NCBI GenBank assembly: GCA_014238205.1
Contig: JABABM010000002.1
Span: 124,001 to 188,000 of the forward strand
Direction: 5' to 3'
Origin: Phycisphaerales bacterium
GTDB taxonomy: Bacteria > Planctomycetota > Phycisphaerae > Phycisphaerales > SM1A02
DNA length: 64,000 bases
The notes under the pieces were generated by a model that saw only the letters and a list, made by a program, of their open reading frames with translations, ran no database searches and had not been told where the DNA came from. Both the position numbers and the translations under genes were made by a program. Below are positions 4,282 through 9,657 of the stretch, piece by piece; the first letter of the stretch is position 1; every line of letters begins with the position of its first letter.

Positions 4282-4578
4282 ATGGCCAAGAAACGAAGAA
4301 AAAAAGCGACTCGTAAAAAAGCGACTCGTAAGAAGGCTACACGTAAGAAGGCCACACGTAAGAAGGCCACACGTAAGAAGGCCACTCGCAAGAAGGCCAC
4401 TCGTAAGAAGGCTCGACGCAAGAAGGCCACACGTAAGAAGGCCACTCGCAAGAAGGCCACTCGCAAGAAGGCTCGACGCAAGAAGGCCACACGTAAGAAG
4501 GCCACTCGCAAGAAAGCCCGTCGAAAAACCACTCGCAAGAAAGCAACTCGCAAGAAAGCGAGAAGGCGTCGACGTTAA
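4282..4578 (+). CDS. Histone-H1-like Lys/Arg-repeat DNA-binding protein
   Basis: 98 residues built almost wholly of a pentapeptide repeat A-[T/R]-R-K-K: seven ATRKK units, then ARRKK alternating with runs of two or three ATRKK, ending in a poly-Arg tail. There are no acidic or aromatic residues. Such tails resemble eukaryotic H1 C-termini and bacterial Hc1/HctB-type proteins, which bind DNA non-specifically and compact the nucleoid; DNA binding is inferred from composition. The start has a near-perfect AGGAGG 7 bases upstream and the gene is followed by a strong terminator, so it is probably a well-expressed single-gene unit. Confidence 0.85.
   Translation: MAKKRRKKATRKKATRKKATRKKATRKKATRKKATRKKATRKKARRKKATRKKATRKKATRKKARRKKATRKKATRKKARRKTTRKKATRKKARRRRR
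4303..4563 (+). repeat. 15-base tandem coding repeat
   Basis: The H1-like gene consists of about 17 tandem 15-base units of the form AAGAAGGCCACTCGT with synonymous changes (CGT/CGC, ACT/ACA, AAG/AAA). The first and last units are more A-rich (AAAAAAGCG type), while the middle ones are nearly identical. This suggests recent unit duplication or slippage, so copy number may vary between strains. Confidence 0.8.
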
Positions 4579-6330: not shown

Positions 6331-6441
6331 ACACATCTGGATCCACTCAATTCAAGTTCCCGGACCGACTTGGCCGAATTGAATAGGTTGGGTCTGCCAT
6401 GGAGCGGCGGACCGGAAAAATACAGCCAAGGATGGAAACCG

Positions 6442-7383
6442 ATGCCGACTGCCACGACGCAGCGGGCACGGAGAGAAGCAGCGCGACGAAACACGGCTGA
6501 TCAACGGGAATCGGGCACCAGGAACACTTCCTTGCCTCCCCGGCGATCCAGCCCTGCAGAGTCACTGCATGCTCGAGACCGTGCCCAGAGAACAACCCGC
6601 GAAGACCACAACTGGGTTCAGGAAACCTGGAAGCAATACAAGAAGAAGCCTCAACTTGAGCTTCGAGAACGCCTGATCGTGTTCTACATGAAGGAGCACG
6701 TTCGCCGCATCGCTGAGCGAGTTCGAGCTTCTCTTCCGAGCCACGTCGATGTTGACGACCTCATGCAACAGGGCTTCCTTGGACTGGTCGAGTCGATCGA
6801 ACGGTTCGAGCTTGATCGTGGATTCAAATTCGAAACATTCAGCTCACTTCGAATACGGGGATCGATGCGTGACTGGCTCCGGGCCCAGGATCATCTCCCC
6901 CGACTCATGCGAACCCGATCAAGACAGATAGCAAATGGTCTGGAACGATTCCGGGTAATGCATGGTCGTGAACCCGATATGACAGAACTCCAGGATGTTC
7001 TCGGTCTGGACAATGACGCCTTTGAACAGTGCTTTGCGGATCGCTCGGCTCCAATGGTCGTAACGATTGGAAGCCTGAACAATGGAGGCAGTGGAGGCAG
7101 TGAGGATGATGGAAGTGCGATTGATGCATTGAGGGACCACGCTGATGAAACGCCCCTTCAGAAGATCCAGCGAAAGGACATTCAGCGATGGGTGACAAGG
7201 GATCTGGACAGTCGCGATCGCATGATCATCATCCTCTACTACTACGAAGCCATGACCATGCGTGAAATCGGGAAGGCAATCGGATGCAGTGAATCCAGAG
7301 TTTCCCAGCGACTGGATTCGATCCTCCAGAGGATGCGTGCAAGATTCACTCAGGACATGGTCGCAATGGAGCTGGCTGGTTAA
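6442..7383 (+). CDS. Sigma-28 family RNA polymerase sigma factor (FliA-like)
   Basis: 313 residues from ATG 6442, chosen because AAGGATGG lies just upstream; a TTG at 6370 would add 24 residues. After a basic, low-complexity N-terminus (1-65), sigma region 2 is clear (VDVDDLMQQGFLGLVESIERF, then FKFETFSSLRIRGSMRDWLR). Region 3 (GREPDMTELQDVLGLD) follows, then region 4 with the helix-turn-helix (MTMREIGKAIGCSESRVSQRL). The FETFSSLRIRGSMRDWLR segment matches the FliA/WhiG/SigD type. It should direct polymerase to a motility or other alternative regulon and be held by the FlgM-like protein at 1478. It is longer than typical FliA (about 240) owing to the N-terminal extension and a Gly/Ser/Asp-rich insert (about residues 213-230). 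Confidence 0.85.
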   Translation: MPTATTQRARREAARRNTADQRESGTRNTSLPPRRSSPAESLHARDRAQRTTREDHNWVQETWKQYKKKPQLELRERLIVFYMKEHVRRIAERVRASLPSHVDVDDLMQQGFLGLVESIERFELDRGFKFETFSSLRIRGSMRDWLRAQDHLPRLMRTRSRQIANGLERFRVMHGREPDMTELQDVLGLDNDAFEQCFADRSAPMVVTIGSLNNGGSGGSEDDGSAIDALRDHADETPLQKIQRKDIQRWVTRDLDSRDRMIIILYYYEAMTMREIGKAIGCSESRVSQRLDSILQRMRARFTQDMVAMELAG

Positions 7384-7451: not shown

Positions 7452-7727
7452 ATGAAACGACACGCCATCCTGCTTGGAGCCATCACATGTGCAGTTGGCA
7501 TGAACCTGCTCACTACACGCTGGGGTACGGAACGATCTGCATCCCCAGTCATGACGATTTCGACTTCTGATGTTGAAAGAAGAACCCAGGCCACCGGTCT
7601 CTACGCGGCCCCATGGCTTGAACAGGCACCATGGCTGGCCTTCGGACTGGGCATACTCCTTCCCATGGGGCTGCTCGGAGCCGGTACGTACTTCCTGGTT
7701 CGTCCAGCCAGTTCCGACCCGGATTGA
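7452..7727 (+). CDS. Small membrane protein of unknown function
   Basis: 91 residues: an N-terminal hydrophobic segment (4-20) that could be a signal anchor, a polar loop of about 30 residues, then a second hydrophobic segment (62-84, LAFGLGILLPMGLLGAGTYFLV). Both ends probably face the cytoplasm. It has no strong ribosome binding site and no recognised family. It stands between the sigma factor and the HTH protein on the same strand. Confidence 0.6.
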   Translation: MKRHAILLGAITCAVGMNLLTTRWGTERSASPVMTISTSDVERRTQATGLYAAPWLEQAPWLAFGLGILLPMGLLGAGTYFLVRPASSDPD

Positions 7728-7985: not shown

Positions 7986-8957
7986 ATGGACAAGATGTTC
8001 TACACCCTCCAGGAAGTCTGTACAAAACTCGGCAAGACCGAGGATGAAGTCCGGGAGATGGTCAGCAGCGGGCAACTCCAGGAGTTCCGTGATAAAGACG
8101 AACTCGTATTCCGTGTGGAACAGATCAACCTGCTTACAGGTGTCGATGAGGAGTCGGGAGATGTCATTGTCGACCTCTCCGGTTCGTCTGGATTTGACGG
8201 CAGTGGCCTCGACCTCACTGGTGACATGGATAGTGAAATAGACCTGTCCAATACAAGTGATGGCAATGCCGGGACACCCGTACCCACCCCTTCCCCGCCA
8301 CATGCTTCAAGTGAACCGGAACCTGGGGCCGCCTCCAGTGAACTTGGTTTGACTGGTGAAAGCGGCATGGACCTTGGTGATACGGGCACCGCTGCCGGAC
8401 TGTCGGCTTTCGATACGGGAGCAGACATAGCTGGCGGAGAGGATGATGCTGCCGAAACTCGCGTTGGTGATGGTGTCGACGATGATCTGACACTTGAGAC
8501 TGTCGGTTCAGGATCTGGCCTCCTCGATTTGACCAGGGAATCCGATGACACCTCCCTCGGAGCTGAGCTTCTTGAAGAGGTCTATACAAGCGACGACGAT
8601 CAGTTCGACATTCCAGCAAACGCATCCGGGCTCTTTGAAGCCTCTGCTCCGGACGATACCGCTGTTGCAAGTGCATCAGCTCCGTCGCCTGGGCGGGCAA
8701 TGCCGACTGCAGCCGGGTCCTTCATGATGCAGGAATCCTATGACGGGGCTGGGTCAGGACTCGGCGTTGGAGCCGCCATCGGCGGCATCGTCGCACTCGT
8801 GGTGCTGTTGATCATCCTCACCGTTCAGGTCAGTGGAACAACCTCAGCCCTGGCAATAACAATTGCCGAAGGACTCTGGATGTGGACTGGTGGCCTTGCT
8901 GGTGTCGCCATCCTTGCCATCCTTGCGGGCATGTTCATCGGCCGCGCCTCCGAATAG
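7986..8957 (+). CDS. Membrane-tethered MerR/excisionase-type HTH protein
   Basis: 323 residues in three parts. Residues 1-50 form a short helix-turn-helix of the MerR/excisionase type (FYTLQEVCTKLGKTEDEVREMV, then a winged basic/acidic stretch with QLQEFRDKDELVFRVEQI). Residues 55-250 are a long, acidic, Gly/Ser/Asp-rich linker. The end has two hydrophobic helices (about 258-280 and 294-318) that should anchor it in the membrane. The DNA-binding end should be cytoplasmic. Partners and targets are unknown. It precedes the phosphatidylserine decarboxylase gene by 19 bases and may be co-transcribed with it. Confidence 0.8.
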   Translation: MDKMFYTLQEVCTKLGKTEDEVREMVSSGQLQEFRDKDELVFRVEQINLLTGVDEESGDVIVDLSGSSGFDGSGLDLTGDMDSEIDLSNTSDGNAGTPVPTPSPPHASSEPEPGAASSELGLTGESGMDLGDTGTAAGLSAFDTGADIAGGEDDAAETRVGDGVDDDLTLETVGSGSGLLDLTRESDDTSLGAELLEEVYTSDDDQFDIPANASGLFEASAPDDTAVASASAPSPGRAMPTAAGSFMMQESYDGAGSGLGVGAAIGGIVALVVLLIILTVQVSGTTSALAITIAEGLWMWTGGLAGVAILAILAGMFIGRASE

Positions 8958-8976: not shown

Positions 8977-9657
8977 ATGCCTCTGACGAAATATGGAATA
9001 CGTGAATGGGGAATCGCCACGATCGTGGCGTTGCCCTTGATGCTGCTGTTCATCGCTGGCGACTGGCTCCCCTTTTCCGGCTGGATCCTTGCTGGACCGA
9101 TCGCGCTGGGCTGGTTTGTCGTCGCAGCCTTTTTCCGGGATCCAATTCGCCGGATACCGAAGAACCTTGCTCCGGGCAGCATGTTGTCTCCTGCGGATGG
9201 TGTCATCTCCGCCATCGAATACGTAGACAGCCATGAAGCGACGGATGGAAATGCGGCCGTGATTCTCCGTATCTTCCTCAGCGTGCTGAATGTCCACATC
9301 AATCGCGCACCGTGCGATGCAACCGTGATGGGCACGATCTACAGGAAGGGCATGTTTCTCAATGCACAGACACCGGAATCCGCCAAGGTCAACGAATCGA
9401 ATGTCATCCTTCTCGAGTTTCCCGGTGGCGAATCCTTCGGCATGCGACAGGTTTCAGGAATGATCGCCCGTTGCATCGTCTGCCCACTGGCCAAGGGTGA
9501 CCAGCTCATCCAGGGACGCAAGTGGGGAATGATCAAGTTTGGTTCGACAACTGAACTCATCCTTCCAAGGCCCGATGATGTGCAGGTGGGCATTGAGGTC
9601 GGAGACAAGGTGAAGGGCGGCAAGACGCTTATTGCCCTGCTGCCTGAGAAGAGGTGA
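8977..9657 (+). CDS. psd: Phosphatidylserine decarboxylase, short (Asd/PSD-II) type
   Basis: 226 residues; makes phosphatidylethanolamine from phosphatidylserine at the inner membrane. Features in order: two N-terminal hydrophobic segments (11-28, 35-52), the FFRDPIRRIP motif, LSPADGVISAI, LNVHINRAPCD, and the self-cleavage site MIKFGST, where cleavage between Gly189 and Ser190 would give the pyruvoyl group. Length and FGS rather than LGST mark the short bacterial/archaeal type. I start at ATG 8977, after a GGCGAGGG-like site. No pssA gene is adjacent. Confidence 0.92.
   Translation: MPLTKYGIREWGIATIVALPLMLLFIAGDWLPFSGWILAGPIALGWFVVAAFFRDPIRRIPKNLAPGSMLSPADGVISAIEYVDSHEATDGNAAVILRIFLSVLNVHINRAPCDATVMGTIYRKGMFLNAQTPESAKVNESNVILLEFPGGESFGMRQVSGMIARCIVCPLAKGDQLIQGRKWGMIKFGSTTELILPRPDDVQVGIEVGDKVKGGKTLIALLPEKR

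Follow-up and report, generated by a model that had tools for sequence, protein, structure and literature searches.

The MerR-fold protein CbpM binds the J-domain of CbpA through an interface of five acidic against seven basic residues, and it is described in the same source as a soluble coiled-coil dimer without DNA-binding residues (PMC4063869). RocS, as reported in PMC11500499, consists of a MerR-type winged helix-turn-helix (HTH) domain, a coiled coil and a C-terminal membrane-binding helix, and tethers DNA. In B. subtilis, the rodZ gene adjoins pgsA and is co-transcribed with it, and RodZ overexpression is reported to have left pgsA mRNA unchanged (PMC5073135). Among the matches listed by a literature search, as far as their listed content goes, there was no report on the family considered here, whose members join an HTH domain to an acidic linker and a C-terminal membrane anchor.

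The gene lies in a 64,000-nucleotide stretch (the window) of a Phycisphaerales genome assembly of 2.44 Mb, where a query with its protein gives a single match at E ≤ 10; its parts are listed in Table 1. The closest named relatives are metagenome genomes of the Phycisphaerae and Phycisphaerales, the nearest having 90% protein identity and no indel. Compared with this relative, the gene carries 136.5 synonymous versus 38.5 non-synonymous differences. Because dN/dS is 0.054 overall and 0.007 for the membrane part alone, with zero amino-acid changes in the linker motif, the open reading frame at 7986-8957 is, by sequence comparison, a real gene under purifying selection. No family in Pfam or NCBIfam spans the whole protein; a Pfam scan at E ≤ 10 returned HTH_17 and AMPK_alpha_AID and nothing else, and thus no HTH_25 (PF13413, the mark of RodZ). 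Further, the viral contigs searched hold no relative, a profile search of solved structures returned one designed repeat protein, as a chance-like match to the HTH domain, and nothing else, and a promoter and terminator scan gave counts no higher than in shuffled sequences.

Table 1. Features of the HTH gene and of its neighbours; positions refer to the window unless a locus is named.
Feature	Position	Strand	Evidence or remark
Whole gene, encoding an HTH domain, an acidic linker and two predicted membrane helices	7986..8957	+	ATG start, 323 aa
MerR/excisionase-type winged-HTH domain, residues 1-54, acidic helix 2 (TEDEVREM)	7986..8147	+	profile, fold, charge and column tests
Acidic linker, low-confidence, probably disordered, residues 55-253	8148..8744	+	model pLDDT, composition
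Near-invariant linker peptide VGSGSGLLDLTRESDDTSLGAELLEEV, residues 173-199, proposed docking motif	8502..8582	+	alignments, dN/dS, motif search
Conserved juxtamembrane segment ESYDGAGSG, residues 250-258	8733..8759	+	alignments
Predicted membrane helix 1 (model 254-283; hydrophobic core 259-277)	8745..8834	+	model, hydrophobicity
Predicted membrane helix 2 (model 297-322; hydrophobic core 301-319)	8874..8951	+	model, hydrophobicity
psd, phosphatidylserine decarboxylase, order-specific neighbour, thought to lie outside the ancestral operon	8977..9657	+	PF02666
Small one-helix protein, example copy and relatives	L097:6976-7407	-	upstream of HTH gene

Several other genes of the window lie upstream on the same strand. 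A lysine/arginine-rich repeat protein is encoded at 4282-4578 (KKATRKKATRKKA...), which we take to resemble a histone H1-type nucleoid protein. A FliA/WhiG-type sigma factor is found at 6370-7383, two genes upstream of the HTH gene; across 60 loci, no sigma-factor cluster is among the printed recurrent neighbours of the HTH gene. The gene directly upstream (7452-7727) encodes a 91-residue protein with hydrophobic stretches and has no Pfam or NCBIfam match.

The protein query matches 96 of 101 genomes from its own genus, family and order, including its own genome. A 30-row profile matches 190 of 198 Phycisphaerae genomes and every one of the 155 with a completeness of 90% or more and a contamination of 5% or less; the gene is a core gene of the Phycisphaerae. 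In a sample of the phylum, the same profile matches 160 of 294 genomes. Because its matches outside the class cover the N-terminus and are weaker (E from 5e-13 to 0.009), some relatives there may have been missed, and some of the matches may be other HTH_17 proteins. All 19 proteins examined from other classes contain the HTH domain and an acidic stretch. One of them (L127:5614-6537, minus strand) has two tandem HTH domains before its acidic linker. The loci compared below were picked from the listed matches, not at random, and one, L118, enters no count, as its cut contig contains no HTH open reading frame.

AlphaFold2 predicts that residues 5-51 form a β-α-α-β-β-α winged helix with a block pLDDT of 82-92. 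The PF12728 (HTH_17) profile aligns to residues 5-46 of the window copy with 18.3 bits, below its cut-off of 27; four relatives of the same family exceed the cut-off (G072, 33.6; G068, 33.0; G062, 31.3; and L134, 35.7 bits), and further scores in the family are 29.9 and 29.8 bits above it and 17.7, 21.0 and 18.9 bits below it. The five best Foldseek rows are two of BldC, two of Xis and a TniQ-Cascade chain (E 0.025-0.035), with a TMt of 0.74-0.82 for the BldC and Xis rows; RacA and CbpM are also among the top rows, whose E-values are weak throughout (0.025-0.055). VIA-align Z-scores are 7.4 for BldC, 6.2 for CbpM and 5.6 for RacA, middling by the tool's own note. The predicted winged helix, the BldC and Xis rows and the relatives above the HTH_17 cut-off agree with the MerR/excisionase-type domain proposed in the first-pass annotation, and the HTH fold, whose loss in homologues that annotation had named as counting against it, is retained. 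Since the structural matches are weak or middling and span BldC, Xis, RacA and CbpM, the predicted fold alone does not choose between DNA binding and protein binding.

The charge of the domain is more informative. As controls, we used the listed best HTH_17 match outside the family, one per genome, from 29 of the 31 relatives' genomes (L257 from G006 was unused and G003 gave no locus). The HTH net charge has a mean of -4.1 across 30 loci of the order, with none above 0, and a mean of +4.2 across the 29 controls, 28 of which are at 0 or above; the remaining L255 (net -6) is included in this mean and absent from the column test. That test has 28 controls, 30 members from the order, 26 from the rest of the class and 18 from other classes, leaving out L094, L114 and L132 for their start pattern. 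At four columns, namely 24 (93%), 35 (96%), 38 (86%) and 41 (96%), at least 85% of the controls have a basic residue. The respective K/R frequencies are 7%, 100%, 0% and 0% in the order, 0%, 92%, 0% and 0% in the other class members, and 83%, 67%, 6% and 94% in the other classes. Moreover, columns 19-21 are D/E in 77%, 93% and 90% of the order versus 4%, 4% and 0% of the controls, while K or R occupies columns 14, 17, 23 and 43 in 87-100% of the order members versus 0-18% of the controls. That the control-basic columns contact DNA is deduced from the controls, with no mapping onto a structure. On this basis, the usual basic face appears to be largely gone in the Phycisphaerae, because columns 24, 38 and 41 are lost and only 35 is kept, and to persist in part elsewhere in the phylum.

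This pattern of charge argues against DNA binding by the Phycisphaerae domain, and it weakens, within the class, the initial proposal of a transcription factor or DNA-tethering protein: the loss of columns 24, 38 and 41 counts against that proposal and the retention of column 35 counts for it. The main rival to the adaptor reading developed below is a tether in which the HTH domain would hold the chromosome and the helices the membrane, as with RocS and RacA. The fold matches include RacA and BldC, the similarly arranged RocS is reported to tether DNA (PMC11500499), and the gene's single copy in its own genome fits as well. Further, most relatives from other classes retain a basic residue at columns 24, 35 and 41, as the class itself does at column 35. 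Against the tether, the class has next to no K/R at columns 24, 38 and 41, the domain and its linker are both acidic, and the predicted model has no coiled coil between the HTH domain and the anchor, where RocS and RacA have one. We consider a chromosome tether rather unlikely for these reasons. In the other classes, where columns 24, 35 and 41 stay basic, the domain may bind DNA or RNA; a DNA-binding fold may have changed its use within one phylum, as these relatives keep more of the basic columns.

The linker is predicted to lack stable structure, with a block pLDDT of 42-55 up to residue 250 and no helix in the model except at residues 186-188. The window copy has 3 K/R versus 44 D/E in this region, which bears out the acidic linker of about 200 residues that had been proposed, and the sum over the 30 order loci is 84 K/R versus 1166 D/E. 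Within it lies the best-conserved stretch of the whole protein, the peptide GSGSGLLDLTRESDDTSLGAELL. In 80 aligned sequences, residues S175, G176, S177, G178, L179, D181, L182, T183, G192 and A193 are invariant; one locus with masked bases (L214) was left out of one family alignment (A4). The peptide has a pLDDT of about 50 and thus no confident structure in the model. When used as a query, it matches in 39 of 41 class genomes at E ≤ 10 and in 36 of 41 at E ≤ 1e-4; 32 of these 36 strong matches lie inside the family match, and the other four have no listed family place. Three weak matches are chance-like: a second one in each of G065 (E 0.4) and G105 (E 0.8), and the only one in G110 (E 1). 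Conservation of this kind in a disordered stretch is expected of a docking site, and we infer that the peptide is a candidate docking motif.

Shorter copies of a related pattern, SG[ILMVFAS].L, are enriched beyond the conserved peptide. With the peptide cut out, the 30 order linkers have 40 copies versus 3.7 in shuffles, the other class proteins have only 12 copies in 10 of 28 proteins versus 2.3 (largest shuffle 10), and the linkers of other classes have 41 copies in 8 of 19 versus 1.9; with the conserved motif included, the count is 71 versus 5.5 in shuffles. In addition, six other-class proteins have SDSDV arrays, amounting to 33 copies.

The two C-terminal anchor helices of the first-pass annotation are predicted in the window copy (Table 1), where the model ends the protein one residue past the second helix, and they are kept across the class. 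Two hydrophobic segments are found at all 30 order loci (window included) and at 26 of the 28 other class loci, with the two exceptions scoring one and three. Among the 19 other-class relatives, 18 have one hydrophobic helix; the nineteenth (L126) was mis-trimmed and counted as helix-less, and its sequence has one hydrophobic stretch near the C-terminus. The juxtamembrane residues D253, S257 and G258 are invariant in 30 rows, and in 80 rows S257 remains invariant and G258 is conserved in at least 90%.

Downstream, the ATG of psd (PF02666, 122.8 bits) begins 19 bp past the end of the HTH gene, which confirms the placement of the gene just ahead of a lipid-synthesis gene. The linkage is conserved inside the order, where, counting the window, 25 of 30 loci have psd beside the HTH gene; family f2 accounts for four of the five exceptions, and psd is present at 7 of the 12 order loci read with 6-kb flanks. 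Elsewhere in the class, within flanks of up to 6 kb, it is present at none of 28 loci, so that the conserved linkage to psd, named as a check in the first-pass annotation, was seen in the order alone. Moreover, 24 of 198 class genomes have no psd match, and all 20 of those listed keep the HTH gene; nine of them are from family f2, of which ten members were sampled, and the tenth (G089) carries psd on another contig, unlinked to the HTH gene. These counts bear directly on the suggestion that the protein senses the membrane state. A membrane-bound transcription factor that sensed lipid state and controlled psd would account for the 19-bp spacing and for the adjacency within the order. It would have to do so after losing three control-basic columns in the class, at loci outside the order that lack psd nearby, and in psd-less genomes. 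A sensing role tied to psd is therefore not supported, and we rate such a regulator as very improbable, mainly on the psd-less genomes and the order-limited linkage.

Across 60 loci, the recurrent neighbours of the HTH gene are psd, a small protein and an OmpA-domain lipoprotein. The small protein has one N-terminal hydrophobic helix and a conserved ARxxxYDxxL stretch, and the two copies that were scanned match neither a Pfam nor an NCBIfam family. The lipoprotein combines a coiled coil with an OmpA domain (PF00691, 54.4 bits), and from its family we take it to bind peptidoglycan. At the 28 class loci outside the order, the small protein is upstream in 23 and the lipoprotein downstream in 23; both are present in 18 and at least one in all 28, always on the strand of the HTH gene. 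In other classes, 12 of 19 loci have at least one partner, and the small protein is upstream in 10 of 19; a weak lipoprotein-profile match at L123 (upstream, E 0.00055) was left uncounted. Since linkage to psd was seen in the order alone, and the small protein and the lipoprotein recur in the rest of the class and in other classes, the psd link looks secondary, and the older link would be to envelope proteins.

In the order itself, this operon link is broken. Of 61 relatives' genomes, 58 have a near-full-length lipoprotein match, with E no higher than 2.6e-64 (9.6e-71 for G000:C66, in the source genome), and neither partner gene is nearby in the 8 neighbourhoods of the order lipoprotein that were read. 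The small-protein profile finds nothing in the source genome. Of 101 genomes, 49 give a match to it, but a weak one (E from 2.5e-8 to 0.008); no such match adjoins the HTH gene in the listed places, the nearest being about 9 kb away (G020), and these matches enter no count. Tandem weak matches were also observed away from the HTH gene in three genomes of the order (G071:C65:98679-99280, G057:C6:71585-72150 and G068:C22:119704-120243).

A layout of HTH domain, membrane anchor and adjoining lipid gene also recalls rodZ beside pgsA, and the protein could be a cytoskeletal adaptor of the RodZ type, whose HTH domain would hold MreB at the membrane. In favour of this, 60 of 61 class genomes have an MreB match with E ≤ 3.4e-60, whereas in the remaining one, G151, which is 74% complete, the best E is 2.7e-14; MreB was found in 273 of 294 phylum genomes, and the source genome has no HTH_25 match at E ≤ 1e-3. 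However, G422 (L134) and G519 (L132), both about 99% complete, carry the HTH gene and the small protein and have no MreB at E ≤ 1e-30; for G519 this was deduced by elimination, since neither listing of genomes names it. At E ≤ 1e-3, 48 of the 61 class genomes have an HTH_25 match, which exceeds the cut-off in 36, so that the two kinds of protein coexist. Further, the protein has nothing after its two helices, unlike RodZ, in which an extracytoplasmic part follows the transmembrane domain. Because the MreB-less genomes keep the gene and HTH_25 coexists with it, MreB looks to be no obligatory partner, a replacement of RodZ is weakened, and we regard a RodZ-type role as quite improbable. As a separate observation, the source genome (G000) combines a full MreB with the lack of an HTH_25 match at this threshold, and so do four genomes of family f2 (G061, G066, G070 and G074).

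Our preferred explanation, held at somewhat less than even confidence, is a membrane-tethered adaptor that docks partner proteins and was ancestrally encoded in an envelope operon. The two C-terminal helices would anchor it in the inner membrane, and the N-terminal winged HTH domain would lie on the cytoplasmic side, carried by a long, disordered tether of negative charge. In the Phycisphaerae, the domain would make no DNA contact; instead, its acidic helix-2 surface would hold a protein with a basic surface, a grip modelled on CbpM holding a J-domain. The linker peptide and the weaker SG-x-x-L repeats would dock further partners. Ancestrally, the genes would have stood in the order small one-helix membrane protein, HTH protein and OmpA-domain coiled-coil lipoprotein, an arrangement which suggests that the HTH protein forms the cytoplasmic end of an assembly spanning the envelope. 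In the order of the source genome, the envelope neighbours would have been lost or moved, with psd downstream instead. The adaptor reading is weighed down by the basic residues of the HTH domain: the retention of column 35 and the apparent gain of columns 14, 17, 23 and 43 lower its likelihood and raise that of the tether. The broken operon link in the order also counts against it.

Overall, the protein probably has a basic cellular role, because the gene is in all 155 high-quality class genomes and the linker peptide is conserved like the fold. A broader version of the adaptor reading, which we find doubtful, is a phylum-wide envelope scaffold, in which a protein-binding MerR-fold head on a multivalent acidic tether, originally accompanied by the small protein and the lipoprotein, would organise the envelope or division. 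Planctomycetes are described as having lost ftsZ and other usual division genes, and in Planctopirus limnophila the reported number of essential, phylum-specific proteins of uncharacterised function is 108 (PMC10632474). The family and its two proposed ancestral neighbours make a short list of testable candidates.

The locus shares some traits with each of the known systems and differs from each in others. The HTH_17, excisionase and BldC proteins have a similar fold, whereas the class has lost three of the four columns that are basic most regularly in the controls. RodZ likewise has an N-terminal HTH domain, a membrane helix and, in Gram-positives, an adjoining phospholipid gene, but its domain is described as Xre-like with one transmembrane domain (PMC5073135), versus a MerR-type domain and two predicted helices here. 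RocS and RacA begin with a MerR-type winged HTH domain, and RocS also ends in a membrane-binding part; both bind DNA and have coiled coils, in contrast to the three lost basic columns of the window protein, and RocS uses an amphipathic helix rather than two predicted transmembrane helices. CbpM is encoded beside cbpA and has neither a membrane anchor nor a long acidic linker, only Glu22 and Glu26 of its named acidic residues lie in the part aligned here, and its NCBIfam model (PRK10265) scores the window protein at 14 bits (E 0.035) against a cut-off of 138. The CbpM domain is nonetheless a MerR-type winged HTH with an acidic helix 2, as in the window protein, and the two have 9 of 24 residues in common from helix 1 through helix 2.
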